The notes beneath the pieces are model-generated. The model was not told where the DNA came from. It saw nothing but the letters and a program-made list of their open reading frames with translations, and made no database searches. This document shows positions 3,150-61,490 of a stretch of 64,000 nucleotides of DNA, piece after piece. A program made the translations under genes and the position numbers. Each line of letters begins with the position of its first letter. Within the stretch, counting starts at the first letter, position 1. The DNA comes from Rugalucina vietnamica (taxonomy: Eukaryota > Mollusca > Bivalvia > Lucinida > Lucinidae): contig OZ024872.1 in NCBI GenBank assembly GCA_964017185.1, positions 59,141,817-59,205,816 on the forward strand, in the 5' to 3' direction.

Positions 3150-4350
3150 ATCTAGGAAACCTTAGTGCAATAAAAATCAATCGAACTTAGTTTCCAACAA
3201 GGCAAGTCAGACCTATCTGTCACATTTCATCAGCTAAACGAGAACATGCACTAGAGGATAATTAAATGAGAATAAGACGGAAATTGAAACAAATTCTGGC
3301 AAATGAGTTCATTCGATCTATATAATTTGACTTGAAGAATCAGACAGTTTAGTTACATCACATGAGTACTGTTTTTAGGGAAAGCTCATATAGACAATGA
3401 TAAAGGTATAATCAGAATTTAACAAATGCGAGCAGCGAAATGAATGTGTCGCATAACCCAAAGGTCCTTTCATGGTCATTGTGCCAAAATATATCTCGTC
3501 CTTACTACATAGCTGAGAAGTAAAGTGTCGTCATGTAGCTTGAAATTGTTCGTGACTCGTCGCACATTTCCAGACATTTAGGAATAGGCCCTGAAGCTAT
3601 AAACTCTTTTATCCATTCTAAATGGATATTCAAACTGCTCAGAAAACTGAAACCATAAAAACGGTAAACAATGCAGATTTTGATTTGCAAAGCCTGTAAT
3701 TTATGCTTGCTGGTGATAAATTTTAGAATTCCAGCTGGTATTTGGTTCACATTTTAACAACCAATAGCAGATTAGAGTTTAGTCGCAGCTAAGTTGAGCA
3801 TGAAAAAAGTTTGATTACATCTAGACATTATGCAACAATCTGCAAATGGGAATTCATTTAATGGCGTCAAGAAACGACGAAGCTATTACCTCTGTTAGCT
3901 ATGGCGGTAATGCTGTTCTCAATATTTCAAATTTGGCATAATTCTAGTTAATGAAAAAGTTATTATCGAAAAAGTAACCTTTTTTGTTGATGAAATTGTC
4001 CATTCTCAAGGGGTATTTAATTAAATATTCATTTGATCACTCATTTATCTAATATATTTTCATCAATATTGCAGCGAGCATTTGTTATTAGATCAACTAT
4101 TATGAACAATATTTCTCTCTTGACATCATGGGTGTGCGTAAATCATTTGCCTTAAGCTTTCTCTAAATATTGCTTTGAAGAAAAGAGGATATGTACACTT
4201 AGTATCCAAAGCTCGAAATTAATCTAATGATCTTAAATCTTGTCATGTACCATCAGGGACTAGAGAACTAAAATGCGTAATACAAATTATGACTGTGTTG
4301 ACCTTGAGTAAATTTACGACAAGGTCAACTTTAGTCGCCTATTTATTTGA

Positions 4351-5511
4351 ACACTCCTACATCCATCGCCTAAAAACGGCTCCAATGGAGCTGACTGAGC
4401 CTGTAATAAATCTGAGAAAATATCTTGTAGCTTTCAATTTTTATCATCATTATCAGCAGACTGTGAAAAGAGCAATTAACAGTCTCCAGATGTCGGATAT
4501 CAGATTTCTACAGGTTTTTTTTGTTCAGTTTTCTCTTGCTCTTGGTCCATTTTGTGTTAGAAGCTAGTGGGTACTTATACATATGGGTACTCAAAATTGG
4601 GGTTATTCAAAATTGGATAGCACTTTTAAAATTTTTGAAACTATTTTCTCAAATTTTGGGCAGTTGAAATTTGTGGTCTTCAAATTTGTTAGTACCCAAA
4701 TAAAATAAACATGTGGGTACTCAAAAAGTGGATATAATGAAATATCAAATCTTGTAGGCACCCAGAATTAGTGACAAATAATAAGATATAGATATTTTAG
4801 AGATGTTAAGGTACTCGAAATATTCAATGAGTCTTCAAGTTTGAGTGTATTCAAAATAAGTGGGTATTCAAAGTGCATATAAATATGTGTTGATATTGAA
4901 ATGTTGGAAACTAATCTTGTCGTTACACAAAGCATGGACAAATTATCTTTGTCTTTACTATAAAAGTGCTCACAAAATTCAAAATTGCATAAAATTGTGG
5001 GTATTCAGATTATGCTTGTTCATGAAATTTCGAGTCAAGACTTGAAACATTAGTACGAAATTGTTGTAGTCTTGGGGTACTCATAAGATCATTAGTGTTT
5101 ATTTGTACATGTATTCGTAAATTGTAGAATTTCATGCTGTGGTGGGTACTCAACATGTGGGTACCTAAAATAATTTAATAAAACTGCACAAAGTGTACAC
5201 ATGCATATGTATTGAAATTCTCAATATTGAAAAAAGCCACCTTTAATTCTATATAGACTCAGATCAGCATTTCATTTATTCTAACCAGGCACTGCATCCA
5301 CTGTTTAATTTTGAAAAAAAGTCGAAATCAGAGGGAAATGGTATATTAAAGTTTCATCTAATTATTCTTGAAACAAACAGGTGGCTGCAACCAAGGAGTT
5401 TATCTCTGCTGCAAAAGCAATTATCTTTTTTCTAAGAATTTATTGTGACAAGCTAAATGATTAAGAAAAAACAGCAAAAACTCTGAAAACTGGCGATGGA
5501 TGTAGGAGTGT
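4351..5511. mobile_element. 1.16-kb DNA transposon-like insert, perfect 20-bp TIRs
   Basis: The ends are perfect inverted repeats: ACACTCCTACATCCATCGCC at 4351-4370 and its complement at 5492-5511. The other units run straight through this point (for example CCTATGCATCTACAGTAAATGGGG in two halves near 14567), so it is an insertion specific to unit 1. GA flanks both ends; TGA can be read if the ends are shifted by one base, so the target duplication is uncertain. The interior is AT-rich with no ORF above 61 codons wholly inside it. It holds a recurring motif, GTGGGTACTCAAAA and variants, near 4566, 4583, 4713, 4859, 4997, 5073, 5141 and 5156. Non-autonomous; superfamily not recognised. Confidence 0.85.
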
Positions 5512-8440
5512 GAATGGGGAAACAGATACCAGATCTCTGGTGAGCGTTTACAAGACCATTTGATATTCCGTTATAAATCCCTTGGTGGGATCACGAAGGT
5601 AGGTTTTTATATGATAGATTGGTTTCAGAATATCAAAGGTTCTCGTCTTTTTACAGCTATTTTATACCAATTGATATCGATTTTAACATGCCCAGGATAA
5701 CTTATCAATCATGCTTGTCCGAATTATCATTAAAATTCTGTCCAGTAAATGATAGCAATCACAGGTTTATTGCAAAATAAATTATCGAATCAACGGTTTC
5801 AGTATGTTCACAGTTGGTCAGAATTATATATGAAGATTTATGTTTAGCTTTTGATAAATAATTCTTGATGTATTTTACAACTGACCAATTTTGATTTTGA
5901 CCTTTTTGCAAAGGTCACCATTGTTTTTTATAGTTTGTTTATTTTTTCCTGTGTAAAATATTTAAATATCAAATGAATAAAGCTATAAATCACTAACAAC
6001 TAATGAACTACCTCTTGTCACTGTCTTGTAATTTTTGTTTCGTCCGATTCTACGGTGAAATATTTTTTTGACTCCAAATATATTTATTTATTACAAGCCA
6101 CATGCAGCCACATTTATTTCGGTCTCATACTTTATTATACTATCATATTTTGTCTCAAAGTAAGAAATGGAACCTGTTTACCTGCGTGAACCTTTAACGG
6201 GTCCTTTCCTGACAACGAGTGTCATACAAATCCATTATTCGTGAAACAAAAATGTATTTTGTTTTCCAACTAAGTTAAATTTAGGAACGTTTTAACCGTT
6301 TGAGATGCCCATGCGAAATTTATTTCCTGATTGCTAGGAGCGATATAATAATTTAGTGCCTGTATCTCTCACTAATCAAGACAGTATCTAATGTTATATC
6401 AGGCCAGTCTTTGAGCTTTGTTTGTTCCAGAGAACTGTATTTGTAAACAATGCAACGTATTACTGAAACACAAGAGTCGTATATAACATTGCATGTTTCA
6501 GTTTGTCCCAGAAACAGAAAAGATTTCACATGATTATACATACTTGACCTGAGGTACAATACAGATACAGTTGATAAAGAACATGATTCTAAGGTAACGT
6601 TGTCTTAAAGGCTAATTGAGAGCAGTTATTAGGTACTTGGTAGACAGGTGAACATGGAAAACAACAGGATTACTAGGAAAATCAGGATTGATATTTTGTA
6701 ATGTCTACTTCTAGACTACACAGGTGTAAATTATTGAAAAATTGCAGCAAAAATGTCTGGCTTTCACTGCCAGTTTTGTAAAGGGTCACTGATGAAGGTT
6801 CATTACCCGAAATTGTACAATATGGCCCATCTTCTCGCTTTGAATGTTTTACTGCTTCCAAAGGATCTAACAATTATTTTTTATTTGTAGTTTGGGGTCT
6901 TCTTGGATTATAAACATGTAGCTTTGAACAATGACCATTCCCATAACGTACTTTGTTGTAAATAGTACTTATACAATTTTGACTTGAGCGGGTTGAATGA
7001 AGCTCGTGAAGCTTTTATTGTACTTGATGCTGTTGTCAACTGAGCAATTAATAACTATTTACATGTTCTCAAAGTTGCGAAGATTAAGTGTACCTGCTGT
7101 TGCAAGCTTCTCTGACTAAATGCAACAGCAATGCACAAGAATTTGGAAAATTAATGACTTCTTAACATCCGATAACCTTCATCATGTTCATAGATCTGAA
7201 GTAAGTTTTATAATCTTACCTTCGTCTTTGATTGGATCTTATCTTGCCTACCTCTTAAATATGCAATTAACCTTTTACTCAGAAATAATGATGGATCTAC
7301 TACATCGTACATATATTAATGGCAATTAAAGAAAGATTTTGGTTCTAGACATATCTTTTAGCTGATTTCTTGAAGTGATTTACATTGTATTGTGTCGATG
7401 GCATGTCATTTGTCACATCAAGTTTTAATTATCGCTATCGCATGACCAAGACATCTTAATCTGCTTCTTTAACGGACTGAAGAATTTAAAATGAAATGTA
7501 TTCATAAATGTAACACTTACATTTGCCTACCCTGAATAGGTTATAGCTACAATAAGACAAGCCAGTTTCTTATCAAACCATGGCCAGTACCGCCTCTGCG
7601 AACACAAATCTTCAAGCATAGGCAATGGTCCGCTCAATGTATGCTTAAATTTAGCAATACTTTACAGAGCTTAATTTAGAATGGAATGTATTGATATATC
7701 AAAGAATATAATCTATAATCTGATATAATAGCTTAATGCTTCTTAAATCTCTGCGATCAGAAGACAGAAAAATGTTATACCAGGTGATAACTTAAGGACT
7801 CTACGAAGACACACCGCTTATTGGAAAATAGCTGCTCACTCGGCTTACGATATGTTCTCATAGTATAAATACCTGATTGTCTATTCAGTTTTCCTAAACT
7901 GATTTTTGGAGTGGGAATAGCTTTCTGATTGTGCCATTTCCGATCGATTGCCTACTTTTACCTTCAGTTTGTTGTTGCCTGATTGCTCAGGACTGAGGCG
8001 GGAAACAATGGTTATTGCAAATAATTGATTAGCTGATACATTGCATTGATAAAGCTCTATGTTTTCAGATATCTCAAATCTTTTGTAACTAGTAGTCTGT
8101 CATTTGGAATATTCTTTCCTTGATTATGTTTTGTTCTTGACATTATACATTGTCTTTATATGCTCGATATGTGGGCCAAGAATTCGAAATATATATCTTA
8201 TATATTATATCTTTGTTCTAATTATTCAATGTTTTGGTGTTGAATTTTTGTGCTGTTTACACCTTATATACTTCGTCATATATTTATTCAAGTTTGGGTA
8301 ACTGAGTGGTTACCTATTGAGAAAAAGCTGCTCATTCGGCTTACGATATGTTCTCTTAGTATAAGTACCTGATTGTCAATTTAGTGTTTTCCCACCTCGG
8401 TTTTTGGAGTGGGAATTTCTTTCGGATTGCACTATTTTCA

Positions 8441-9085
8441 TCATTGCTCTTACGAATATGAAATTCGTCACTAAGAGATGATGCATAGTATAAACATATA
8501 CCACGTCTCTGATGGGATTTGAACCCCTGTACAGAAATGCAATGCACTAACCACTGAGCCAACTAGTCGGTTTCCTGACGCTGTATGTCAGAGACTGTAC
8601 TATTGACTGAATAGCTGTACTATTTATAGAAGCTACGCATCATGTGATCTACCAACTCGACCTTTTCAACCACGGCAAATAATCTCGAATGAATGAAGAT
8701 GCAATGGGACATAACAGCCCCATTTCGAGAAAGTAATCATTTATGTTTAAGAGAACGTCATTTTATGAATTTATGACTCATCTGGTCCATTTCCGACGAG
8801 CCCATATGTTAAGAATATGAAACTCATAATTAAAGAGATGATGGATAGTTTGAAAAATATCCCCCGTCCCCGATGGGATTCGAACCCCAGGACCCCCTGG
8901 ACTAAAATCCCATGCTCTAACTACTGAGCAAAAGAGTCGACTCCCTTACGCAATATGTCAACAATTGTACTATCGATTGAATAGCTGTGCTACTTATAGA
9001 AGCTGCTCATCATGTGATCTGCCAATCCGACATTTCCAACCACGGCAGATAATCTAGAATGAATGAAGATGCAATGGGACGTAAC
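8441..9085 (-). repeat. Paired tRNA-like SINE modules, unit 1
   Basis: Two successive modules of roughly 300 bp. On the minus strand each has a tRNA-like head: in the first, an A box GTTGGCTCAGTGG (8557-8569) and a B box GGTTCAAATCC (8516-8526). In the second the B box reads GGTTCGAATCC near 8882. Each is followed on the minus strand by a shared body reaching TTCATATTCGTAAGAG or its equivalent. The doublet occurs in every unit, so it predates the array. Diverged and probably dead. Confidence 0.6.
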
Positions 9086-9280
9086 ATTGCCTACTTTCAT
9101 TGATGAAATGTACTTTTCCGTATATGTCCTACTGTGAATGTTCTAACTTTAATGCACTAGTAAGCAAGATGGATGAGTCAAACATTCTTAAAACGACCAC
9201 AGTATATTGCAATGCAATTAAAACAAATGCGAAGCCTACCTTTGGGACCGTAAAGTCAATTTAAAAATAAAACTATCTAT

Positions 9281-9724
9281 GGTTAAGAAATAGATCAGCT
9301 CTAGCAGTGAATTGTTGAGTAATAATTCACTGTTTGGAGGTCAGTTGTAAAGAAGATCAAATCTTCTTACAACTGACCGACAAACAGTGAATTATTACTC
9401 AACAATTCACGCACTTGAGCTGATCTATTTCGATTCTAACACACAATAAACGGAATAAATGTTGCTGAAACCGTCGATATCGTTCAGCTTTCCGCCATTG
9501 CATTGCAGATATCCCGCCAAATATTTGACTGTAATGCTGGTATTTACACACACTTATTACGTTTGTTGTGCGCTAAAACGACGTTTCACCGTCTAACGCT
9601 GCTTTGTGGGATAGCTGACGTCACAAATGCCGCAAAATAACGTCACGCTTATTCGCCCAGTGAAATTGTTGCACAATATAACACGTTTTTTACCATTGGC
9701 TGTATAGGCGAGGTGTGTTAGAAT
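9281..9724. mobile_element. Foldback insertion in unit 1
   Basis: The other units read CTATCTATGCTTGCAAACAA here. Unit 1 has 444 extra bases between CTATCTATG and GCAAACAA. The left third is a large hairpin with 71-nt arms (9287-9357 and 9361-9431) around a 3-nt loop. The rest is bounded by TTCTAACACAC (about 9435) and GTGTGTTAGAAT (9713-9724), a 12-bp inverted pair. This looks like a foldback or MITE, perhaps with one element nested at the edge of another. No coding capacity. Confidence 0.75.
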
Positions 9725-9975
9725 TGCAAACAATCTTCAGCGAATGCTCTTTAGAAACGGCTTACATTTGATTTATGGTAATAGAATAATGTCAGACGTA
9801 TTTCGTAATAATTCAGCATTGAGACAATATACCACACTTTAAGAGTCCCAGCAGATAGTTTTGTAGAATTCTGCATACAATATTCATACACCACACTCCT
9901 TATGGCGGCAACAGGCCTAAGCATTTTCACCAAGTTCAGTTAGGCTGCCTGAATGGGCATATAAATGGTGGTTAA

Positions 9976-10192
9976 CTCATATAAGCCCGGCGTTCCCTTT
10001 TGTGGGACATAGGCAAACAGTATAGCCCGAAATGTGACGCCGCAGAACGCGGCGTCCCATCTGGGGCTATTCTGTTTGCGCAGAGAAATTTCATCGAAAA
10101 ATAAAATAAAAAAACCATTCCTGATGTCCTTTAAAATGAAAGTGGACTCACACAATTGACAGCGATGGGAGAATCCATTCGTCAAATATGGG
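9976..10192. mobile_element. TTAA-flanked MITE, unit 1
   Basis: A 217-bp insert flanked by TTAA on both sides (9972-9975 and 10193-10196). The empty site GGTGGTTAACATACA is intact in units 3 and 4. The ends are short inverted repeats, CTCATAT and ATATGGG. Inside are nested inverted repeats around CGCCGCAGAACGCGGCG and AGCCC..GGGGCT. TTAA targets are typical of piggyBac and Kolobok superfamilies; CCC-like termini slightly favour piggyBac (inference). Unit 5 has the same insert at 58356-58567. Confidence 0.75.
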
Positions 10193-10584
10193 TTAACATA
10201 CAGACATTAATCTTTGTCATCCTAACATGCGTAGGTCACTAAAGAGAAGTGTAAACATTCTTGTGCTAGTCGTCTTTATGTTTGGGTGATTTCGTGGGCC
10301 TCTATTTATATATCTATTTCTAAACATTTAGATCTAATAAAATTAAAACTGAGATCCTCTAGGAGCAGTGAACATATTATGAGAAAGTGGATGGGCCATA
10401 CCGCGGTTTCGGCTACTTAAGCCTCTTCAGATACCATATGAATTTTACATGTAGCCAAAGACAATAACTGTAGTTTTGCATCGATTTAAATTTTTGTTTA
10501 AAGTTTTGAAGTAGTACTTGACTTGCAAACTGTACATTTACCCAATCATTCGAGTTTGTTAGAGCAAAATTGTTATAAAATAGC

Positions 10585-10720
10585 ATGGGTTTCTCAGCCG
10601 AGTGGATGATAGATGTTTCCAAGCGATCGATCTGCAATGTCTAAGAAAATAGTTGCCTGATGAAAGATTTACTCAGGTAAATCTGTGAAAATCATCTTTT
10701 CAATTCCATTGTTATTAGCG
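10585..10720. repeat. Sub-repeat E1, unit 1
   Basis: Contains GCCGAGTGGATGATAGATGT and TTTCCAAGCGATCGATC. It is paralogous to 12112-12245 about 1.5 kb away in the same unit. The pair is present in all five units, so an internal duplication preceded array formation. Confidence 0.6.
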
Positions 10721-11054
10721 GTTATATCTCTGAGTACATCTCAGCTGTTTGACAACTAGGTGTCGATTTAATGGCTCGTTTGATTCCACTGAAAACCAGC
10801 AAACTTTGCTGTCATGATCATATTGGCAAGAAACTGTAAAAAATATGTAATGGTCAGGACATTATACAAGCAGTTACTTACACAGAGAGAGCATATCGTA
10901 GGCCACAGCAAGCTATTTCCCACTATGTGGCCATTCAATTACTCGGACATAGCTAAATATAAGAGAGCGTATATAAATGGTGCAAACAGCGCAAAAAGTC
11001 AAATACAAAATAAAAAATAGGACCTTGACAGAAGTGCCACTTTGGAACGGTCAG

Positions 11055-11372
11055 TTATAATATTAAATGACAGCCCGTATGCTGTAACTGATTATTTTGT
11101 AACTGTTTGAAAGACTGATCAAGAAATTTGTTACATTGAAATGGACCAAAACCATATGCAGTTATTGTAAAAGTAAAGGACATCAACGTTAAAAGTAATG
11201 TAAGTGCCACAAGAATACCAATGGTTCTCATACGACACATACCAGGAAAACACAATGTCAATGCAGACACATTGTCATGAAATTCAGCTTTGTAAATGCG
11301 TTGGTTCAGGTCCGTAGTTGACTTTATAATGTGGCATGCAGAAAACAGGATGTACTTTAAAGGAAACACCAA
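11055..11372 (-). pseudogene. Membrane-segment-like open frame, decayed in siblings
   Basis: A 105-codon minus-strand frame with a hydrophobic stretch (ILVALTLLLTLMSFTFTI) after a polar N-terminal part (RIYKAEFHDN). The corresponding parts of units 2, 4 and 5 (29544-29744, 49830-50024, 59478-59726) keep pieces of the same peptide, but units 2 and 5 have small length changes that shift frame and unit 3 is also disrupted. It could be an exon of a former multi-span membrane protein, or chance openness in an AT-rich repeat. No family recognised and no convincing splice pair found. Confidence 0.2.
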
Positions 11373-11514
11373 ATATCATGGAATGTGACTATATATTCAA
11401 AATGAATAACAATTCGCATTATCTAATCTGATGAGTTGCAGTATCAACGACTTGCGCTAGAATTATATTGATGGTTGATATATGTTTAATAAGCATTTGT
11501 ACTGCTTTGTGGTA

Positions 11515-11900
11515 CAAGCCGGGGTTTTATAGCGACGCAGTAGAGTGCAGGCCTAGCACGCAAGAGGCCCTGGTTTGATCCTGTCAGGTCGAAATGTGAT
11601 TGGCATTGTTTTCACTTGTAACATTTGGCGCCCAACGTAAAATGACCCATCCAATGGCTAGCATCTTCCGTGTGGAAGATACTTGGAATATTTAAAAGAG
11701 ATTCTAAATCTAAAATCAAGGGGGATATGTAAAAGTGCTATGCATAATATACACTTGTAACCCTAAACCGGTTTTATAGCCACGCGGTAGAATGCAGGCC
11801 TACACGTAGCACACAAGAGATCCTTCACGGGCAAAAGGTGATAAAAGTTTTTCACCTGTTACACAATCAATGAAAATTTATCATGCACTTTCGTCCTTTT
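11515..11900 (+). repeat. Two tRNA-Ala-like SINE relics, unit 1
   Basis: Near 11520-11585 and 11765-11840 the sequence follows a tRNA plan: TATAGCGACGCAGTAGAGTG as a damaged A-box arm, CCTAGCACGCAAGAGG resembling the anticodon arm of tRNA-Ala(AGC), and GGTTTGATCC as a B-box-like element. The pair recurs in every unit (about 29990-30345, 38655-38990, 50290-50620, 59855-60240). Between them lies TTTGGCGCCCAACGT (11624-11638). Too degenerate to be tRNA genes; best read as old SINE heads. Confidence 0.5.
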
Positions 11901-12111
11901 ACAGCAACTGAGCTGATGTATATACCATACAAGAATTTTCAAGATTTAAAATACTAAATAAAGTATGTGATACTGTCCTGTCACAACAAAGCTTGTGTTA
12001 TGTGTATGCTTACAATTGTGATAGAAGTAATTCGTGGTTGTCGTATATAGTACGATATACCAAAATCACCCGTATGCTTGTGGGTGCAAAATTATGATCT
12101 AAAGTAGCAAA

Positions 12112-12245
12112 GCTTGCTCAGCCGAGTAGATAATAGACGTTTCCAAGCGACCGATCTGCACTGTCTAATATAATAGTTACCTGAAAGGTTTCCAACGGTA
12201 AGATTAGGAAAATCATTTCTTCAAATATCATAATTGAGCATTTTT
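12112..12245. repeat. Sub-repeat E2, unit 1
   Basis: Paralogue of 10585-10720. In units 3 and 4 this copy is interrupted by a MITE; here, in unit 2 and in unit 5 it is the empty site. Confidence 0.6.
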
Positions 12246-13620
12246 CTCTTGATTGTAGTTATTCGTCGAAAATAGTGTATACACCTCCACAAAGGACAAC
12301 CGGTCGTGGGGCTTTGATATCAAACGTTAGTTGCACTTTTCGGCTACTTCCATGGCGCTGCTAATATGACAACAGTAAAAGCTAAATAATATTGAGATAG
12401 CTTGCTCGACGCCTATCTTGAGTGTACAAAGATGACTTAGAAGAGTGAGGTGGCTCATATAATGGAGATAACCGCTTTTGTAGTTATTCGCTGTTTGGAA
12501 CAATAAATAATATTCATCACAGCTGGAAGCCGAAGCAGAAATGACATGCGGATAATTAGTGTTATACTCCATCGATGTTTATAACTGTCTAATTTCTTAC
12601 AGATGGCTCGGGCTTTATACACTGTGTTGACCCCAACTTTAAGGTACACATTTTGGCTAGTTGGATCCGGAGAATTCCCGTCAGTTTGTCAATACATGTA
12701 TGTTTTATAATATTTTTGCTTCTTTACCTACATCTCGAATAAATTGTCATCTTTTATTATTCTAAGCAGCACCTGACTTTCAGTAACTTGTCCACCAACT
12801 TTTAGGATACACGCTTATTTTCTATATTTCCGTTAAAAGTGTTTAATGGTGTTTTCAAACTACTTAAATTGAAACATAAATTCTTTTGAAAAAAAATGGA
12901 GCGCCTCAATATCTAGAAAACCTACGAAAAAATCAATCGAACTTACTTTCAAACAAGGCAAGTCAGACCTATCTGTCACATTTCATCAGCTGAACGAGAA
13001 CATGCACTAGAGGATAATTAAATGAGAATAAGACGGAAATTGAAACAAATTCTGGCAAATGAGTTCATTCGATCTATATGATTTGACTTGAAGAGAAAGA
13101 ATCAGACAGTTTGGTTACATAACGTGACTACTGTTTTCATGGAAAGCTCATATAGACAATGTTAAAGGTATAATCAGAATTTAACAAATGCAAGTGGACA
13201 AATGAATATGTCACATCACCCAAAGGCCAAAGACCCTTTTATGGACAAACAAGGTTACATTGTGCCAAATTATATCGTGTCCTTAGTACATAGCTGAGAA
13301 GTAAAGTGTCGTCATGTAGCTTGAAATTGTTCGTGAGCAGACATTTAGGAATTGGCCTTGAAGCTATTAACTATTTTATTCATTCTCAACGGATATTCAA
13401 ACTGTCCATAAAATTGAAACAATAAAAAAATGGTAAACAATGCAGATTTTGATTTCCAAAGCCTGTTATTTATCATTTCATGCTTGCTGGTGATAAATGT
13501 TAAAATGCAAGGGGTTTGGTTCACATTTTAACATTAATGAGCAGATAAGTCAAAGCGCAGTTGAGCATGAAAAAAGTTTGATAACATCTAGACATTATGC
13601 ACCAATTCGCAAACGGGGAT

Positions 13621-13880
13621 TTTCTAAGAAATAAAAAAGAACAGTTTAGGTTTAGATTCATTTTCTAACCAACGTTCCACACATTTGGCCCCATTTAGAT
13701 AATACTAGTCTTTGTATCGACTACCCTGTTGAAAGATACAAAATTACAGTTATTCTCTTTAGCTCCATGTTGCCAAATCTATAGCGTCACGAAGAAGGCT
13801 TAAGTAGCCGAAACCGCGGTATGGCCCATTCCTTTTCTCATTATGTTCACTGCTCTTAAAGGACCAATTTATTTTTATTC
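13621..13880. repeat. 260-bp block inverted relative to a block downstream
   Basis: Present in units 2, 3 (32193-32450) and 5 (52659-52915), absent from units 1 and 4. It contains CTTAAGTAGCCGAAACCGCG followed by GTATGGCCCATTCC. The same sequence occurs on the opposite strand in the right half of units 1, 2 and 5 (about 10352-10480, 28776-28910, 58709-58850) and in part in units 3 and 4. Likely a dispersed short element inserted twice in opposite orientation; ends not resolved. Confidence 0.55.
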
Positions 13881-14277
13881 TTCATTATATGACGTCACGA
13901 AACGACGACGTTATTACCACTGTTTTACCGTTATGACGGTAATGCTGTTCTCAATAAAATGCTTGTTAATGAAATTACTAGTATCGAAAAATTAACTTTT
14001 ATGTTGATGAAATTGTCCACTCTCAAGGGGCATTTAATTAAATATTCGCTTGATCACTCATTTCTCTAATATATTATCATCAATACTGCAGCCAGCATTT
14101 GTTATTAGAGTAACTATTATGAACAAAATATCTCTCTTGACAACATTGGTGTTCGAAGAACATTTGCCTTAGGCTTTCTGGAGAAAAGAAGATATATACA
14201 CTTAGTATCCAAAGCTCGAAATTAATCCTATGATCTTAAAGCTTGTCATGTGCCATCAGGGACTAGAATACTAAATT

Positions 14278-14512
14278 GAGCCGCCGCATGGGAAAACCAA
14301 CAATCTACATAGGCGAAAACAAAGGCGCAGATCATTTTCGCAGTAACTGCGAAGCTGATCGGCGCCTTTGTTTTCGCTACACGGATAGTACAATCCCTCG
14401 ACTTTCTAAAGCCAAAAATTTCCAGCGTCTAGCCATATTCTGTGACTGTACAGCCCTGTTTGTGTCGGACCTGGTCGGAACCAAAATTGTTGGTTTTCTC
14501 ACACACAGGCTT
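14278..14512. mobile_element. 235-bp MITE (family M), unit 2
   Basis: The ends are inverted repeats: GAGCCGCCGCATGGGAAAAC at left, and GTTGGTTTTCTCACACACAG with GGCT at right. Flanked by AATT on both sides (14274-14277, 14513-14516). The centre has a strong hairpin (ATTTTCGCAGTAACTGCGAA region). Units 1 and 4 lack it. The 87-codon open frame across it is not conserved as protein in the related insertion at 50893 and is taken as incidental. Non-autonomous DNA transposon; a four-base AT-rich target is the only clue to superfamily. Confidence 0.85.
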
Positions 14513-48861: not shown

Positions 48862-48992
48862 AAGCCCGCCAGTAACTTTGTGTTACTGATCGTTCCAAGT
48901 CGATAGTTTAAGCCCGCCAGTAACTTTGTGTTACTGATCGTTCCAAGTCGATACTTCTGTGGTGGTTCTTTTTGTTTTATGTCTTGGTGTTT

Positions 48993-49029
<37 letters not shown>

Positions 49030-49240
49030 TGCTGTTGGCGCCTTATGTATGTTTTCATATTTTTAGTTAAGTTAAGGTAACTCAGTGGCCACCTATTGGG
49101 AAAATAGCTGCCCATTCGGCTTACGATTGTTTCATGGTAAAAGTACCTGATTGTTAGTTTGGTTTTTTCCCACCTCGGTTTTTGGAGTGGGAATCTTTTT
49201 CTGATTGCGCCTTTTCCTGATCTTTGCCTACTTGTACCTT
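48862..49240 (+). mobile_element. Family R, about 380 bp, with T-run
   Basis: Inserted in the T-rich tract before CAAAATTTTGAAGTCGTCC. Unit 3 shows the uninterrupted tract. The first 48 bp (AAGCCCGCCAGTAACTTTGT and following) are present twice in tandem. A long T-run (48997-49028) replaces a short one. Ends TTGCCTACTTGTACC; TTTTC may be the target duplication. Confidence 0.8.
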
Positions 49241-50892
49241 TTCAAAATTTTGAAGTCGTCCTGGACATGCAAACTCTACATTTATCCAATCATTCAAGTT
49301 CATTAGTACAAAATTGTAACTTAAAATAGCATGGATTGCTCATCCGAGTGGATGATGTTTCCAAGCGATCGATCAGATCAGCAATGTATAAGAACATAGT
49401 TGCCTGAGGAAAGGTTTACTCAGGTATATCTGAGAAAATTATTTCTTCAATTCCATTATTATCAGTGGTTACATCTCTGAGTACATCTTCGCTTTTTTAC
49501 AACTGGGTGTCGACTTAATGGCTCGTTTGATTCCACTGAAAACCAGCAAAATTTGCTGTTTTGATCACTTTTGCAAGAAAAGGTAAAAATATGAAATGGT
49601 CAGGACATGATACAATCATAACGAATGTCCCGAGGTAGGAAAAATGACAAGCAGTTGCTTACACAGACAGAGCATAGTGTAAACCGCAGCAAGCTATTTC
49701 CCACTATGTGGCCACACAATTACTCGGACATTACTAAATATAAGACAGCGTATTAAATGGTGCAAACAGCACGAAAAGTCAACAAGACAAAGAAAATAAG
49801 ACCTTGACAAAAGTACCACCTTAAAACGGTCAGTAATATAAAATTACAGCTCGTATACGGTTCATCTTTTGGTTACTTTGTAACTGTATGAAAGAACAAA
49901 CAAGTGATTCGTTATGTTGAAATGGACCGTAACCATATGCAATTATTGTAAAAATAAAGGACAACAACGTTACAAGTAGTGTAAGTGCTACAACATGAGA
50001 ATACCAATGGTTATCATACAACACATATCAGGAATACACAATGTCAATGCAGACACATTGTCATGAAATTCGGCTTTGTAAATGCGTTGGTTCAGGTCCG
50101 TAGTTGACTTTATAATGTGACATGAAGAAAACAGGATGTACGTTAAAGGAAACACCTACAACATGGAATGTGACTATATATTCAAAATAAACATCAGTTC
50201 GCATTATCTAGTCTGATGAGTTGCAGTATCCGCGACTTGCGTTAGAATTATATTGGCGGTTGGTATATGTTTAATGAGCACTCATATTGCTTTGCGGTAC
50301 AAGCCGCGTTTTTAAAGCGACGTGGTAGGATGCAGGCCTAGCGCGCAAGTCCTGGTTTGATCCTCAGTCAGGTCAAAAGGTGATTGACACTTTTTTCACT
50401 TGCGCCCAACGTAATATGACCCAACCGACGACTCGCACCACATCCGTATGGAAGAATATTAGATAGAGATTATAAATGTAGTAGTGCTATGCATAATATA
50501 CACTTTCTATAGGCACGAAGAAAAGTGCAGGCCTAGCACATAAGAGGTCCTGCACGGGCAAAAGGTGATTAAGTTTTTCACCAGTTACAGAATTAATGAA
50601 AAATTATCCTGCACTGTCGTTCTTTTACAGCAACTGAATTTAAGTATATACCATGCAAGAATTCTCAAGATTTCAAATACTTAATTAAGTATGTGGTGTC
50701 ACAACAAATCGTGTATCATGCTTATGCTTACATGTGTGATATAAGCAATATGTGGTTGTCATATATAGTACGATAAATCAAATCATCCGTAGGCTTGTGC
50801 GTGCAAAATTATGATTAAAAGAAGAAAATGCTTGCTCAGCCAAGTAGATGATATATGTTTCCAAGCGATCGATCAGCACTGTCTAAGAAAAT

Positions 50893-51126
50893 GAGCCGCC
50901 TCATGGGAAAACCAACAATCTGCATAGGCGAAAACAAAGACGCAGATCAGCTTCGCGGTAACCGCGAAGCTGATCAGCACCTTTGTTTTCGCTACTCGGA
51001 CAGTACAATTCCTCTTCTACTTAAATACGAAATTTCAAGCTTCTAGCTGTTTTCTGTGCTTGTACAGGTCGGTTTATGTCGGACCTGTTCGGAAACCACA
51101 TTGTTGGTTTTCCCACGAGGCGGCTC
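50893..51126. mobile_element. MITE family M, second site, full length, unit 4
   Basis: Perfect-looking ends GAGCCGCCTCATGGG and CCCACGAGGCGGCTC, AAAT on both sides (50889-50892, 51127-51130), and a central 35-bp palindrome around GCTTCGCGGTAACCGCGAAG. The empty site CTAAGAAAATA(G/C)TTACCTG-like is seen in unit 2. Compared with the first-site copies it is better preserved and thus probably younger. Confidence 0.9.
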
Positions 51127-53316
51127 AAATAGTTACCTGATGAAACGTTTCCTAGCGTAAAACTGGGTAAATCGTCAAATATCATAATTCAGCCTTTTCT
51201 CGTGATTGTAATTATTCGTCGAAAATATAAAAAGGACAGCTAGTCGTGGAGGTTTGATATCAAACGTTAGTTGCACTTTTCGGCTACTTCCATGTTGCTG
51301 CCAATATGACAACAGTGAAGGCTAAATAATATTGAGATAGCTTGCTCGACGCTTATCTTGAGTGTACAATTATGCCTCTTAGAGTGAGGTGACCCATATG
51401 CAGGTGATAACCGCTTTTGTAGCTGTTCGCTGTTTTGTACAATAAATAATATTCATCGCAACTGGAAGCCGATGAAACGGTTCGCTTATGACGAATGCGG
51501 AAATGACATGCGGATTAACTATGACTAAAATGTGATACTATAGTCTGTATGCTTAGTGTTTTGCTCAATAGTGGTTCATAACTGTAATTTCTCACAGGTG
51601 GCTCAGGCTTTAGACACTGTATTGACCCCAATTTTAAGGTGGCTGGGTCCGGAGCATTCCCGTATGTCAATACATGTATGTTTAATTATAGTTTTGCTTA
51701 TTTATCTACATCGCGAATAAATGATCATCTTTTGTTATTCTAAGCAGCACTTGACTTTCAGTGACTTGTCCACATTTAGGATATCAAAACACACTGTGTT
51801 GCAAACATACTTATTTTCTATATTCCTGTGAAAGCAAGAAATTTTAAAGTGTTTAATGGTGTTTTCAATCTATTTAATACATTCGTTTGAAAACAAACAA
51901 AAAAGCATTTGGAACGCACCAATATCTAGAAAATCTATGAGCAATGAAAATCAATCAAACTTACTTTCCAACAAGGCAAGTCAGACATATCTGTCACATT
52001 TCATCAGCTGAACGAGAACATGCACTGGGGGATAATTAAATGAGAATAAGACGGAAATTGAAACAAATTTTGGCAAATGAGTTCATTCGATCTATATAAT
52101 TTGACTTGAAGAGAAAGAATCAGACAGTTTGGTTACATCACGTGACTACTGTTTTCACGGAAAGCTCATACAGACAATGATAAAGGTATAATCAGAATTT
52201 AACAAATGCAAGTGGACAAATGAATATGTCACATCACCCAAAGGCCAAATGCCCTTTTTATGGACAAAAAAAGGGGACATTGTGCCAAATTATATCGTAT
52301 CCTTAGTACATAGCTGAGAAGTAAAGTGTCGTCCTGTAGCTTGAAATTGTTCGTTACTCGTCACACATTTCCAGACATTTAGGAATTGGCCTTGAAGCTA
52401 TAAACTATTTTATTCATTGTCAACGGATATTCAAACTGTCCATAAAATTGAAACAATAAAAAAGGTAAACAATGCAGATTTTGATTTCCAAAGCCTGTTA
52501 ATTATCATTTCATGCTTGCTAGTGATAAATGTTAAAATGCCAGGGATTTGGTTCACATTTTAACATTTATGAGCAGATAAGAGTTTAGTCACAGCTCAGT
52601 TGAGCATGAAAAAAGTTTGGTAACATCTAGACATTATGCACCAATCTGCAAACGGGGATTTTCTAAGAATTCAAAAAAACAGTTTAGGTTTAGATTCATT
52701 TTCTAACCAACGTTCAACACATCTGACCCCATTTAGATTATACTAGCATTTGTATCGACCACCCTGTTGAAAAATACAAAATAACAGTTATTCTCTTTGG
52801 CTCCATGTTGCCAAATTTATAGCGACACTAAGAAGGCTTAAGTAGCCGAAACCGCGGTATGGCCCATTCCTTTTCTCATTATGTTCACTGCTCTTAAAGG
52901 ACCAATTTATTTTTATTCCTCATTGTATGACGTCAAACAACGACGACGCTATTACCACTGTTTTACCGTTATGACGGTAATGATGTTCTCAATAAAATGC
53001 TAGTTAATGAAATGATCGAAAAAATAACCTTTTTGTTGATAAAATTGTCCACTCTCAAGGGGTATTTAATTAAATATTCATTTGATCACTCAGTTATCTA
53101 ATATATTATCAGCAATACTGCAGCCAGCGTTTGTTATTAGATCAACTATTATGAACAAAATATCTCTCTTGACAACATTGGTGTTCGAAGAACATTTGCC
53201 TTATGCTTTCTCTAAATCCTGTTTTGGAGAAAAGAAGATATATACACTTAGTATCCAAAGCTCGAAATTTATCCTATGATCTTGTCATGTTCCATCAGGG
53301 ACTAAAATACTAAATT

Positions 53317-53551
53317 GAGCCGCCACATGGGAAAATCAACAATCTACATAGGCGAAAACAAAGGCGCAGATCATTTTCGCAGTAACTGCGAAGCTGATCA
53401 GCGTCTTTGTTTTCGCTACACGGATAGTACAATTCCTCAACTTTCTAAAGCCAAACATTTCCAGCGTCTAGCCATATTCTGTGACTGTACAGCCCTGTTT
53501 GTGTCGGACCTGGTCGGAACCCAAATTGTTGGTTTTCTCACACACAGGCTC
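53317..53551. mobile_element. 235-bp MITE (family M), unit 5
   Basis: Third copy of the shared first-site insertion, with AATT at both borders. Differs from unit 3 at only a few positions by eye. Confidence 0.85.
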
Positions 53552-54146
53552 AATTATGACTGTGGTGACCTTGAGTAAATTTACGGCAAGGTCAACTTCA
53601 GTCGCCTATGCATCTACAGTAAATAGGGGAAACAGATACCAGATCCCAGGTGAGCGATTACAAGACCATTGGTTGTTCCGTTTAGTCCTCTTCTGCTGTT
53701 ATACAGCCCTTGGTGGGATCACAAATGCAGAAAGGTAGGTTTTTATATGTTAAATTGGTTTCAGAATATCAAACGTGCTAATCTTTTACAGCTATTTTAT
53801 ACCAATTGATATCGATTTAAACATGCCAAAAGGATTAACTTATCAATGTTTGTCCGAATTATCATGAAAATTCTGTCTAATAAATGATAGCAATCACAGG
53901 TTTATTGCAAAATAAATTGTCGAATCGTCAGTTTCAGTATATTCACAGTTGGTCAGAATCAAATATGAATATTTATGTTTAGCTTTTGATAAATCCTTGA
54001 CATTTTTACAACTGCACGATTTTGATTTTGACCTTGTTGCAAAGGTAACATTTTTTTCTATTTTTGTTTTATCCTGTTTTGAAGATTTTAATATGAAATG
54101 AATAAGGCTATAAATCATAAACAACTAATGAACTAACTTTTGTTCT

Positions 54147-54184
<38 letters not shown>

Positions 54185-54557
54185 TTCGGTTCTACGGTGA
54201 AATATTTCTTTGACTCCAAGTGTATCTTACAAGCTTAAATTCTCATGGATACTAATAATTATTGTTTTCCAAGTACAGTCTCGTACTTTATTACACTATC
54301 ATATTTTGCCTCTAAGTAAGAAATGGTACCTGTTTACCTGTGTGAACGTTTAACAGGTTTTTCCACAACGAGACTCATACAAATCCATTTCTTGTTTTCC
54401 AAGTAAGTTTAATTTAGAAACGTTTTTACCGTATGATATATCCATGCGCAATTTATTTCCTGATTGCTAGGAGCGACATAATAGTTTAATGGCTTTATCT
54501 CTTACTGATCAAGACAGTATCTAACCAGTCTTTGAGCTTTGTTTGTCAAGAGAACTG

Positions 54558-54796
54558 TACACTGTATTTGCCAACCATTTCTATGACAGGGTTGTGAAAG
54601 CATGGAACTCCACCATGCACCATCTCTCAACTCATTCAAGAATCTACTAAACAAGCACTGGCATGGGCACCCAAGCAAATTTCAAGCAAGATACTACCAA
54701 GCAGGTCCCAACACCAGAGGGCGAATTAATCGAAAAGCTCCTAATGAAGTCTGATGCTTACCATGTTGCCGAGTATAGGTAAAAATACAGGTAAAA
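54558..54796 (+). pseudogene. LINE reverse-transcriptase C-terminal relic, unit 5
   Basis: As in units 2 and 3, but about 20 bp shorter in the middle: the segment coding LSENV is missing between CATGGAACTCC and ACCATGCACC. The coding frame is therefore further decayed. Confidence 0.7.
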
Positions 54797-56639
54797 TAAA
54801 CAATGCAACGTGTTACTAAAACAAGAGTTGTATATAACATTGCATAGACTCATTTTTTTTCAGTTTGTCCCAGAAACAAAAAGGATTGTACATGATTACA
54901 CAAACTTGATATTCATTTATGTCTCTTTCGATAAATCTACACATAATTCCAGGAATATTTGAAAATAAAAAGCACCAAACCTAGTGCAAATTATGCGAGG
55001 AGCTGATAAAAAATTTATTCAAAGGGTTCAGTCAGAGGTAGTGCAGTGCTGAAATGTTCTTAAATTAAATACTTAAAACGAACAATGATCCTCGCAGTCA
55101 ATATGGCGAAAGCAAACATTTTCCAGATTAAAATCAACAAGTCAACATTTCAGAATAGAGTATACATGTATCTGATGCTTTGGGATCCCCCGCAAAAAAG
55201 AGAAGAAAAAAGTTTACGACAGAACTTATACGTTCGATTACAATGCATTGCGTGTGTTTCTTAGTATGATAAAACATTTGCAGGTACGATAGACACAAGA
55301 TACAGTTGATAAAGAACATGATTCTAAGGTAACGTTGTCTAACAGGCTAACTGAGAGCAGTTATTAGGTAATTGTAGACAGGTGAACATGGAAAACAACA
55401 TGATTACTGGCATAATCAGATTGATATTTTGTAATGTGTACTTTGTAGTTTAAGGTCTTCTTGGATTACAAACATGTAGTTTTAAACAATAACTATTCCA
55501 ATAACGTATTTTGTTGTAAATAGTACTTGTATAATTTTGTCTTAAGCGGGTTGAATGAAGCTCGTGAAGCTTTTATTGTACTTGATGCAGCTGTCAAGCA
55601 ATTAAAGACTATTGACATGTTTTCAAATTTGCGAATATTAAGTGTACCTACTGTTGCAGTTGCACGCTTCTCTGACTAAATGCAACAACAATGCACAAGA
55701 TTTTGGGAAATTAATGACTTCTTAACATCCGATAATCTTCGTCATGTTTATAGACCTGAAGTAAGTTTTATAATCTTACCTTCGTCTTTGATTGGATCTT
55801 ATCTTGCCTACATCTTAAATATGCAATTAACCTTTTACTCAGAGATAATGATGAATCTACTACATTGTACATATATGAATGACGATTACAGAAAGATTTT
55901 GCTTCTAGATATATTCTTTTAGCTGATTTCTTAAAGTGATTTACATTGTATTGTGTCTGAATATGTGATGCGATGGTATGTCGTTTGTCACATTAAGTGT
56001 CAACTATCGCATTGCCAAATTATCTTAACCTACTTATTTAACAGACTGAAGAATTTAAAATGTTATAATTTCATAAATGTAACACTTACATTTGCCCTAC
56101 CCTGCATTGGTTGAAGCTACAATATGACAAAAGACGGTTTCTAATCAAATCATGGCCGGTACCGCCTCTGCGAACACCAATCTTCAAGCATAGGCGTTGG
56201 TCCCCGACAATGTAGGCTTAAATTTAGAAATGCTATACAGAGCCAAATTCAGTTTGGAATGTATTGATATTTCAAAGAATATAATCTATAATCTGATATA
56301 ATGGCTTAATGCTTCTTAATTCTCTGCGATCAGTAGATAGAAAAATGTTATAGCAAGCAAACCTTGTCTAATGATAACTGAAGAACTCTACGAATGTTTC
56401 TGAAACTGAAGACACACCGCCTATTGGGAAATAGCTGCTCACTCGGCTTACGATATGGATATGTTCTCCTAGTATAAATACCTAATTGTTCTAATTGTTA
56501 AATGTTTTGGTGTAACTGAAGGTCACCTATTGGGCAATAGCTGCTGACTCGGCTTACGATGTGTTCTCTTAGTATATGTACCTGATTGTCAATTATGTGT
56601 TTTCCATTTTCGGTTTTTGGAGAGGGAATTTATTTCTGA

Positions 56640-57275
56640 TTGCTCTTACGAATATGAAATTCGTAACTAAGAGATGAAAATATCCTACGTCCCTGATTGT
56701 ATTCGAACCTAAGACCGAAATACAATGCTCTAACCACTGAACCAACGAGTGGACTCTCTGACGTAGTATGTCAGTGACTGTACTACCGACTGAATAGCCG
56801 TGCTATTTATATCCATTTTCTTAAGTTCGGGTAACTGAGCAGACCTTTTCAACCATGCGGCTAATTTCGAATGAATGAAGATGCAATGGGACATAACACC
56901 CCCCCCCCCCATTTCGAAAAAGTAATCATTTATGATCACTAGAAAATCGTTTATGACTTTATGACTCATTTAGTCCATTTCCGACGAGCCCCTCTCTTAC
57001 GAATATGAAATTCATAATTAAAGAGATGATGGATAGTTTGAAAAAATATCTTACGTCCCTGATAGGATTCAAACCAAGGACCCCCTGGACTAAAATCCAA
57101 TGCTCTAACCACTGAGCCAAAACGTAGACCCCCTGACGCAATATGTCAGCGATTGTACTATGGATTGAATAACTGTGCTACTTATAGAAGCTACGAATCA
57201 TGTGATCTGCCAATCTGATATTTCCAACCACGGCAGATAATCTAGAATGAATGAAGATGCAATGTGACATAACGT
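56640..57275 (-). repeat. Paired tRNA-like SINE modules, unit 5
   Basis: Two modules in minus orientation separated by a C-run (56900-56911). The second keeps a B-box word GGTTTGAATCC and an A-box-like GGCTCAGTGGTTAGAGC. Confidence 0.5.
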
Positions 57276-57467
57276 TGCCTACTTTCATTGATGAAATGTA
57301 CTTTTCCATTTATGTTCTAACTTTAATGCACTAGTAAGCAAGATGGATGAGTCAAACATTCTTGAAATGACCGCGGTATATTGCAATGCAATTAAAAACA
57401 AATGCGAAGTCTACCTTTGGGACCGTAAAGTCAATTTAAATAAAACTATCTATGCTTACAAAAAAAA

Positions 57468-58124
57468 GGTACAAGTAGGCAAAGATCAGGAAAAGGCGCA
57501 ATCAGAAAAAGATTCCCACTCCAAAAACCGAGGTGGGAAAAAACCAAACTAACAATCAGGTACTTATACCATGAAAACATTTCGTAAGCCGAATGAGCAG
57601 CTATTTTCCCAATAGGTGGCCACTCAGTTACCTTAACTTAACTAAAAATATGAAAACATACATAAGGCGCCAACAGCACAAAATATTTTAAACACCAAGA
57701 CATAAAACAAAAAGAACCACCACAGAAGTATCGACTTGGAACGAACAGTAACACAAAGTTACTGGCGGGTTCAAATCGATTTTACATGGCCATAACCTCA
57801 CCCTCAGCTTCTGCAGTGGTTCATAACATTTAGTTAGTTCTTCGGTCCTCGTGGTGAATCTCTAACTAGTAAATGAATCATCAAGAACAAACAAATAAAT
57901 CATGATAAACATCCTGATGAATCAAAAACCAGGACTCACAGATTGAGTAAGCTGCCCGACGATGGAGATCCCTGGGCGCCGAATAACTTACTAACTCCGG
58001 AGCAAAAGAAACACATCAGTTGGACCCCGGTGGGCCAAGCAACAGACAAGAAGCTCCGGCCCCAACCAACTAAAATGAATAGCTTTAAGTCGGGGCCATC
58101 ATAGAGTCTGACGCCCGACCCACC
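57468..58124 (-). mobile_element. Family R, longest complete copy (657 bp)
   Basis: Minus orientation. The 3' end (at left) is GGTACAAGTAGGCAAAGATC and the 5' end (at right) is GCGTCGGG-type: in plus sense GACGCCCGACCCACC at 58124. The same 5' limit, GGTGGGTCGGGCGTC, starts the copy at 61775, so this is probably the true 5' end. Inserted into TATGCTT(G)CAAACAATCTTCAG of the unit; the target duplication is unclear (ACAA possible). No A/B boxes of pol III type and no ORF above 69 codons. Confidence 0.8.
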
Positions 58125-58355
58125 ACAATCTTCAGCGAATGCTCTTCAGAATTGGCTTACATTTGATTTATGGTAATAGAATAATGTCAGACGTATTTCG
58201 TAATAATTCAGCATTGAGACAATATACCACAGTTTACGAGTCCAAGCAGATTGTTTTGTAGAATTCTGCATACAATATTTATACACAACACTTCTTATGG
58301 CGGCAACAGGCCACGTTCAGTTAGTCTGCCTGAATAAATATATATAAGTAGTTCA

Positions 58356-58567
58356 CTAGTATAAGCCCGGTGTCCCTTTTGTGGCACATAGGCAAACAGT
58401 ATAGCCCCAGATGTGACGTCGCAGAACGCGGCGTCCCATCTGTGTCTATTCTGTTTGCACAGTGAAATTTCATAGACAAATGAGATAAAAAATAAAAATC
58501 ACCCTGATGTCCTAAAATTGAAAGTGGACTCACCCAATTGATAACGATGGGAGAATCCATTCGTCAA
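58356..58567. mobile_element. TTAA-type MITE, unit 5
   Basis: Same insertion as 9976-10192, more eroded at its right border; the left flank is now TTCA. Shared only with unit 1. Confidence 0.65.
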
Positions 58568-61274
58568 ACTTTAATCTTTGTCATCCTAACATGTGTAGGA
58601 CACTAAAGAGAAGTGTAAATATTCTTGTGCTAGTCGTCTTTATGTTTTCGTGGGCCTCCATTTATATATCTATTTCTAAACATTTATATCTAATAAAATC
58701 AAAACTGAGATCCTCTAGGAGCAGTGAACATATTATGAGAAAAGGGGTGGGCCACACCGCGGTTTCGGCTACTTAAGCCTCTTCAGATACCCTATAAATT
58801 TTACAACATGTAGCCAAAGACAATAACTGTAATTTTGCATCGATTTTAATTTTTTATTTAAAGTTTTGAAGTAGTACTGGACATGCAAACTGTACATTTA
58901 CCCAATCATTCGAGTTTGTTAGCGCAAAATTGTTATTTAAAATAGCACGGATTGCTCAGCCGAGTGGATGATAGATGTTTCCAAGCGATCGATCAGCAAT
59001 GTCTAAGAAAATAGTTGCCTGATGAAAGATTTACTCAGGTATATCTGTGAAAATCATCTTTTCAATTCCATTGTTATTAGCGATTACATCTCTGAGTACA
59101 TCAACTGGGTGTCGACTTAATGGTTAATTTGATTCCACTGAAAACCAGCAAAATTTGCTGTCATGATCACATTGGCAAGAAAATGTAAAAAATATGTAAT
59201 GGTCAGGACATAATACAATCAGTTACTAACACACAGAGAACATATCGTAAGCCGCAGCAAGCTATTACCCACTATGTGGCCACTCAATTACTCGGACATA
59301 GCTAAATATAAGACAGCGTATATAAATGGTGCAAACAGCGCAAAAAGTCAAATACAAAACAAAACATAGGACCTTGACAGAAGTGCCACCTTGGAACGGT
59401 CAGTAATATAAAATGACAAATCGTATTTTGTTCCTGATTATTATCTAACTGATTGAAAAGAACAATCAAGAGATGTTTCACTTAATTGTACCATAACCAT
59501 ATGCAGTTATTGTAAAAATAAAGGACATCAACGTTAAAAATAATATATTAAGTGCGTCAAGAATACCAATGGTTCTCATACGACATATACCAGGAAAACA
59601 CAATATCAATGCAGACAAATTGTCATGAAATTCAGCTTTGTAAATGCGTTGGTTTAGATCCATAGTTGACTTTATAATCTGGAATGCAGAAAACGTGATG
59701 TAGTTTAAAGGAAACAGCAACAACATGGAATGTGACTATATATTCAAAATAAATAACGATTCGCATTATCTAGTCTGATGAGTTGCTGTATCAGCGACTT
59801 GCGCTATAATTATATTGATGGTGGATATATGTTTAATAAGCATTGGTACTGCTTTGCGGTACAAGCCGGATTTTTAAAGCGACGCAGTAGAGTACAGGCC
59901 TAGCACGCAAGAGGCTCTGGTTTGATCCTCAGTCAGGTCGAAATGTAATTGGCATTGTTTTCACTTGTAACATTTGGCGCCCAACGTAAAATGACCCATC
60001 CGATGACTAGGACCACATCCGTGTGGAAGATACGTGGAATATTTAATAGAGATTCTAAATCTAAAACCGAGGGGGATATGTAACAGTGCTATGCAAAATA
60101 TACTCTTGGAACCCTAAATTGGTTTTTATAGCCACGCGGTAGAATGTAGGCCTACACATAGCATGCAAGAGATCCTTCACGGGCAAAAGGTGATAAAAGT
60201 TTTTCACCTGTTACAGAATCAATGAAAATTTATCCTGCACTTTCGTCCTTTTACAACAACTGAACTGAAGTATATACGAAACAAGAATTTTGAAGATTTC
60301 AAATACTAAATAAAGTGTGCGATACTGTCCTGTCACAACAAATCTTGTGTTATGTGTATGCTTACATGTGTGGTATAAGTAATTCGGGGTTGTCGTATAT
60401 AGTATGATATACCAAAATCATCCGTATGCTTGTTGGTGTAAAATTATGATCTAAAGTAGCAATGCTTGCTCAGCCGAGTAGATGATAGACGTTTCCAAGC
60501 GACCGATCTGCACTGTCTAAGATAATAGTTACCTGATGAAAGAAAAATCATTTCTTCAAATATCATAACTGGCCATATTTTCTCGTGATTGTAGTAATTC
60601 GTCGAAAATAGTGTAAACACCTCCACAAAGGACCGGGCGGGGCCGTGGGGCTTTGATATCAAACGTTAGTTGCACTTTTCGGCTACTTCCATGGCGCTGC
60701 TAATATGACAACAGTAAAAGCTAAATAATATTGAGATAGCTTGCTCGACACCTATCTTGAGTGTACAAAGATGACCCTTAGAGTGAGGTGGCTCATATAA
60801 TGGAGGGAGATAACCGCTTTTGTAGCTATTCGCTGTTTGGAACAATAAATAATATTCATCACAGCTGGAAGCCAACGAAAGCGGTCGTTTATGACGATTG
60901 CAGAAATGACATGCGGATAATTAGTGTTATACTCATTCGATGTTAATAACTGTCTAATTTCTTACAGATGGCTCGGGCTTTAGACACTGTGTTGACCCCA
61001 ACTTTAAGGTACACATTTTGGCTACTTGGGTCCGGACCTTCCCGTCAGTTTGCCAATACATGTATGTTTTATAATATTTTTGCGCCATAACCTACATCTC
61101 GAATAAATGGTCATTTTTTATTATTCTAAGCAGCACTTGACTTTCAGTAACTTGTCCACCAACTTTTAGGATACATGCTTATTTTCTATATTTCCGTGAA
61201 AAGTGTTTAATGGTGTTTTCAAACTACTTAATAAATTCGTTTGAAAAAAAAGAGAAAAAAGTGGAGCGCCTCAA

Positions 61275-61490
61275 TATCTAGAAAACCTACGAGCAATGAA
61301 AATCAATCGAACTTACTTTCCAACAAGGGAAGTCAGACCTATCTGTCACATTTCATCAGCTGAACGAGAACATGCACTAGAGGATAATTAAATGAGAATA
61401 AGACGGAAATTGAAACAAATTCTGGCAAATGAGTTCATTCGATCTATATAATTTGACTTGAAGAGAACGAATAAGACAGTTTGGTTACAT
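61275..61490. repeat. Truncated sixth unit, right edge of array
   Basis: The first 215 bp of a further unit (AATATCTAGAAAACCTACGA to GACAGTTTGGTTACATCA). Homology then stops abruptly. Together with the edge at about 3150 this gives the array 5 full units plus about 2 per cent of another. Confidence 0.85.

Follow-up and report, generated by a model that had tools for sequence, protein, structure and literature searches.

The 64,000-nucleotide stretch of Rugalucina vietnamica DNA analysed here, hereafter the window, lies on contig OZ024872.1 (C4:59141817-59205816) of a genome of 1.09 Gb assembled in 47 contigs. It holds a tandem array of five head-to-tail units, A to E, which span 3147-61272 and range in length from 8.8 to 18.5 kb. 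Each unit opens with a core of about 185 bp that is the least variable stretch of the unit. The G+C content of the window is 32-39% per 2 kb, and 16 stop-to-stop open reading frames (ORFs) of at least 100 amino acids occur in it. The array is a genuine tandem duplication, old and local, in which no protein gene was recognised. The features of the locus are collected in Table 1, where coordinates that are negative or exceed 64000 continue the window numbering into the fetched flanks; 100 kb of flank per side, and then 20 kb more per side, were compared.

Self-comparison of the window by BLAST returned 141 direct matches of at least 150 bases, 78.7 kb in total when each unit pair is counted on its own, as well as 25 inverted matches (5.4 kb), while no self-match of that length appeared in any of three dinucleotide shuffles of the window. 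A first-pass annotation of this DNA had proposed a collinear tandem array of a non-satellite macro-unit, and the long same-strand matches lie at the spacing it gave. Its anchors, at about 3150, 12911, 31443, 40239, 51923 and 61275, agree with the unit starts found by BLAST (3147 to 61273). Each of the other four units formed collinear blocks along the unit when chained on E; A, B, C and D gave 7818, 8097, 8379 and 7095 aligned columns and mean identities of 86.4%, 86.7%, 88.5% and 85.4%, respectively. Global identity in the ten unit pairs ran from 80.5% (B-D) to 91.4% (C-E), so the units are similar as had been claimed, but most pairs fall slightly short of the nine in ten bases estimated earlier. 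Insertions private to single units had also been reported, and stretches of at least 150 bases without a counterpart in the other units do number four in A, four in B, none in C, six in D and one in E. Differences in unit length are mostly due to these insertions. As long, collinear, adjacent copies on the same strand, the units constitute a tandem segmental duplication. They share with macrosatellites a kilobase-sized unit in tandem, but not the many nearly identical copies, there being five to six units at 80-91% identity.

The first-pass annotation had counted five full units and a sixth fragment, with the array ending at 61490. The five units stand, but the array does not stop there: the fragment is the head of a diverged sixth unit, F, because units A, C, D and E chain collinearly and in order to 61273-73508, with 7-8 matches each. 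The informative links of unit F are the core, 64394-65366, 71888-72163 and 73194-73508; two others, 63540-63829 and 68127-68494, fall in copies of a dispersed repeat family, and unit B adds a weak link at 73995-74158 that probably stems from a repeat as well. Where it aligns outside repeats, the body of unit F is about 65-88% alike to the other units. Older relatives, one of them inverted, lie on both sides of the array within 250 kb. The clearly alignable array begins at a core start (3147) and ends at a core end (61492-61504); edges at cores may reflect exchange between cores, or just decay of the unit F body.

Four single-copy stretches of the unit gave 9, 6, 11 and 14 matches genome-wide, all at C4:59.046-59.265 Mb, in searches that scored the best candidates only and skipped very common words. 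This confinement applies to the stretches queried, and stretches that hold repeats do match elsewhere.

The closest pair of units shifts along the unit. B, C and E are closest to one another (93-97% identity) over the first 3.2 kb, whereas at 58.3-60.7 kb (unit E numbering) C is nearest D (95-97%) and A is nearest E (90-93%, rising to 95% in the last block). The units are therefore mosaic and exchanged sequence after they had formed, by unequal crossing-over or by gene conversion, which are not distinguishable here.

Table 1. Array units, cores, older relatives, tail elements and lectin ORFs at the locus. Unit starts follow BLAST boundaries; private insertions are stretches of at least 150 bases; spacing is from TATA box to initiator-like site, in bases.
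Feature	Position	Strand	Details
Unit A	3147..12907	+	9.8 kb; private insertions 4343-5509, 6711-6883, 7884-8211, 9286-9723
Unit B	12908..31437	+	18.5 kb; private insertions 17240-17757, 18033-20289, 21027-27373, 27430-28541
Unit C	31438..40234	+	8.8 kb; no private insertion; nearest to plain unit
Unit D	40235..51920	+	11.7 kb; private insertions 40473-42009, 42400-42894, 44295-44653, 44712-45125, 45304-46343, 49037-49238
Unit E	51921..61272	+	9.4 kb; private insertion 57463-58124 (dispersed repeat)
Unit F start (older sixth unit)	61273..64000	+	runs past window to ~73508 (locus L019)
Core A	3147..3378	+	TATATAA 3319, TCAGAC 3340; spacing 23, 6 bases lost between
Core B	12908..13134	+	TATATGA 13075, TCAGAC 13102; spacing 29
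Core C	31440..31671	+	TATATAA 31612, TCAGAC 31639; spacing 29
Core D	40241..40472	+	TATATAA 40407, TCAGAC 40434; spacing 29; private insertion directly after
Core E	51921..52152	+	TATATAA 52093, TCAGAC 52120; spacing 29
Core F	61273..61504	+	TATATAA 61445, TAAGAC 61472; spacing 29
Tail element, unit E	60809..60892	+	AATAAA invariant in 9 aligned copies
Tail element counterparts	A 12467-12540, B 30919-31002, C 39735-39818, D 51406-51489		
Older tail part	-96055 to -94079		
Older head part, inverted ("inverted copy")	about -75.0 to -70.55 kb		
Older tail part	109151-112488		
Older tail part	122748-124980		
Older partial core ("far copy")	153881-153933		
C-type lectin ORF	about -87.4 to -86.3 kb (L010:2573-3697)	-	left of array
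Second C-type lectin ORF	C4:59024208-59025323	+	93% identical to first, opposite orientation

The conservation of the core is exceptional. In the five-unit alignment (6328 columns with all of A-E present, after removal of two long insertions in B and D), 17 of the 187 core columns are variable, compared with 27% of the 6141 others. Sixteen of 1229 sliding windows are as low in variation as the core, and the 12 lowest listed all overlap it. When the inverted copy is set beside A-F, core identity is 95-98% in all 21 pairs. Over 153 consecutive core bases this copy does not differ from the A-F consensus, despite a body that is only 60-76% alike to the units where alignable. Differences within the core are private to single copies and do not form shared tracts. 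A pattern of 24 core places, two of which were left free where the far copy differs, had eight genome matches at up to two mismatches, all within C4:59.07-59.30 Mb. The far copy fits this pattern partly through the free places, yet aligns over 54 bases at 80%, with a short motif kept and its surroundings decayed. We found no RNA structure in the core. Conserved far above its surroundings and with no coding frame, it has, among paralogous copies, the profile of a conserved non-coding element.

Within the core, a TATA box precedes an initiator-like site by 29 bases in five of the six window copies and by 23 in A, close to the 30 or so bases of a TATA-type core promoter. The inverted copy has TAAGAC at the initiator-like site, as does F. 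Other core sequences we take to resemble homeodomain and E-box sites. Near the other end of unit E, 8.7 kb past the initiator-like site, lies a tail element with an AATAAA motif. We propose a non-coding transcription unit because this TATA-type start and polyadenylation-like end bracket the unit.

The explanation we favour, at about even chances, is that the module of about 8.8 kb which was duplicated here long ago, locally and in tandem, is non-coding and probably transcribed, and that a promoter- or enhancer-like element has been preserved in it. Its copies arose side by side and traded sequence by crossing-over or conversion, then diverged and gathered repeats. The core would act as a TATA-type promoter, or an enhancer-promoter, at the unit start; together with the AATAAA element it would most likely bracket a non-coding transcript, and selection would preserve the regulatory element while most of the body drifts. 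From these features we infer that the core is a promoter, that the unit is transcribed, and that the core owes its conservation to selection and not to gene conversion.

Several observations weigh against this explanation. Among the young units alone, other stretches come near the core's conservation: invariant columns make up 0.86-0.90 at the core and 0.84-0.86 at about 57.3-58.2 and 58.6-58.85 kb of unit E. The reversed control of the 24-place pattern also had one genome match, and the far copy, at 153.9 kb, retains only about 54 bases, without the TATA box. The promoter motifs themselves vary: unit A has lost six bases between TATA box and initiator-like site, the TATA box of unit B reads TATATGA, and the initiator TCA is missing from F and the inverted copy. 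The window holds 47 occurrences of TATATAA by itself. Constraint might also be imitated by gene conversion among the copies.

The alternative that survives best, a serious possibility though well short of probable, is a neutral tandem segmental duplication in which the cores are preferred sites of exchange, homogenised by crossing-over or conversion. It would fit the mosaic units, which show that exchange took place, the coincidence of the array start with a core start and of the end of the well-conserved part with a core end, and the lack of a coding or RNA-structure signal. However, nearest neighbours switch at about 57-58 kb of unit E, away from the cores. The inverted copy, 66-74 kb off, and the sixth unit are as near to the consensus as the young copies, and homogenisation is further opposed by the private nature of the core differences, which lack shared tracts, and by the far copy, in which a short motif has outlasted its surroundings.

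A further reading, which we regard as rather doubtful, is a tandemly amplified cis-regulatory module. It would comprise at least six TATA-bearing elements of about 150-185 bp, and a non-coding transcript would start from each. Selection would act on the element, and perhaps on copy number too, while the greater part of every 9-kb unit drifts.

It is unlikely that the array is what remains of a tandem protein-coding cluster, made up of small-exon genes that are now pseudogenes or encode very short peptides. Several segments are more conserved than their surroundings in the old copies, some with a GGTA donor-like site after them, and ORFs of 118 codons in B and 138 codons in F cover the same segment. 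This pair looked promising as a gene, but was rejected as the frame is interrupted in other units. The ratio of nonsynonymous to synonymous change fell below 0.4 in 2.7% of 705 ORFs of at least 30 codons, compared with 3.0% of 626 in the reversed alignment and 2.9-5.6% in three column shuffles; codon-like substitution was thus not in excess over the controls. ORFs that were stop-free across the other units, with no more than a single break of frame there, numbered 48 of 705, against 31-38 in controls of 557-626, more in number but similar in share. Between old and young copies, the core included, all six frames were about equally similar in translated comparison (tblastx) and contained stops, among the best 60 of 1691 matches. 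A Pfam search with all 139 ORFs of at least 33 amino acids in unit C gave nothing credible (two families, each hit by a single ORF, with E-values of 0.0055 and 0.006). The frame is not conserved between copies as in a tandem protein-coding cluster, though smaller exons, of fewer than 30 codons, are possible. The first-pass annotation had stated that no gene explains the amplification; no coding gene was indeed found, but the promoter-like core of about 185 bp had been overlooked.

A cluster of structured small RNAs such as microRNAs, with the tail element as hairpin precursor, is very unlikely. The tail element of unit E does fold better than shuffled sequence (z of -3.0 on the plus and -4.1 on the minus strand), and slid controls pair less than the hairpin, as expected for a structure taken from E. 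Over nine copies, however, 85.6% of cells pair, a value that 151 of 500 column shuffles matched, and only one of 29 pairs had changed on both sides. The loop (19/24 conserved) is better kept than the 3' arm (11/24), several copies fold otherwise, the element lies outside the 14 best shared folds of 1918 windows, and Rfam gave no microRNA match at gathering score. We therefore rejected the hairpin as a feature of the family: it does not recur in all copies with arms better conserved than loop, as in a microRNA cluster.

Two explanations are weaker still. Repeats are abundant in the region, but a mobile element that carried the core and inserted several times is highly improbable given that no match to the core or to three other stretches lies outside the 250-kb region, that the core sits at the same place in each unit and that whole unit bodies are collinear. 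An assembly artefact of collapsed or repeated haplotypes is the least probable of all, as the units are 9-20% divergent, have private insertions, are mosaic and grade into older collinear copies, and the first-pass annotation was right to see real duplication rather than an assembly stutter.

We compared the array with published systems. The human 1q23.3 tDNA macro-repeat is described as having 7.3 kb units, 9-43 of these GC-rich units per allele, and human-mouse conservation limited to tRNA genes and a 24-bp CTCF site (PMC4041453). Both arrays have large tandem units in which a short element is kept while the bodies drift. Unlike the human repeat, with its tRNA genes and shown CTCF binding (PMC4041453), the present array has six diverged AT-rich units. 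No match to an Rfam tRNA model was found in the array. In Arabidopsis, 465 of 1,741 predicted tandem arrays are reported to lack an annotated element, with orphan units averaging about 1.1 kb (PMC3464658). Our array is likewise tandem and without an annotated element, but its units measure about 8.8 kb without insertions and contain a strongly conserved core (PMC3464658). Because so many Arabidopsis arrays hold no annotated element, the present array is ordinary in kind (PMC3464658); the core is its unusual and interesting part. DXZ4, FIRRE and ICCE are X-linked large tandem repeats discussed for cis- and trans-regulatory roles rather than for a protein (PMC6985041). They resemble our array as large tandem repeats with a regulatory rather than a protein role in view, and differ in being mammalian, X-linked and documented by chromatin data (PMC6985041). 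Literature searches, judged by title and the start of the abstract, returned no paper on this array, a result that extends to those searches and to no wider claim of absence from print.

Part of an insertion in unit A (4348-5000) is matched on other chromosomes at up to 99% identity (40 of 1367 candidates scored) and therefore arrived well after the duplication. The stretch at 59828-60108, which has many genome matches at about 77%, is probably a short interspersed element that predates the duplication; by eye it holds what we take to be tRNA-like promoter boxes. Rfam matches to SECIS_1 at 58043-58110 (minus strand) and 61789-61856 (plus strand) scored 39 bits against a gathering score of 35. 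Both lie inside copies of a dispersed repeat of about 660 bp, so that the fold may have come about by chance or the repeat may contain a SECIS-like element. The segments 53354-53414 and 50888-51116 belong to a short repeat, probably an inverted-repeat transposon, of which the flanks hold many copies; the former folds as a hairpin, with sub-threshold Rfam microRNA matches. In unit E, 58864-59065 and 60410-60560 are related to each other and have counterparts in the other units, which is an older internal duplication within each unit. A GGTA donor-like site follows these segments in most copies.

To survey the neighbourhood, 99 ORFs were searched with Pfam, namely 10 from the window and 89 of the 252 flank ORFs of at least 80 amino acids (20 flanking loci). 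The domains found were of mobile elements (reverse transcriptase, integrase, DDE and others), SCAN, Dam, zinc-finger and one C-type lectin, and matches in the flanks were mostly to mobile-element proteins, the lectin apart. A search with 29 further distinct ORFs placed the lectin and some domains and gave nothing for the array. On the strand of the inverted core, a distance of about 15.5 kb separates it from the C-type lectin ORF downstream. The two lectin ORFs are about 30 kb apart, the duplicated block being about 2 kb long, and no core was found around the second in the DNA fetched there. A role of the core as lectin promoter is not favoured, since the second lectin copy appears to have no core nearby.

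With copies of different age in one place, the locus provides a natural conservation screen, in which the core has hardly changed between copies with bodies so diverged that they can scarcely be aligned. Should the core be a promoter or enhancer, one could test here whether a tandem array that lacks a protein gene can be maintained by its regulatory element alone. If the core has merely been homogenised by recombination, it would show how conversion can mimic constraint.

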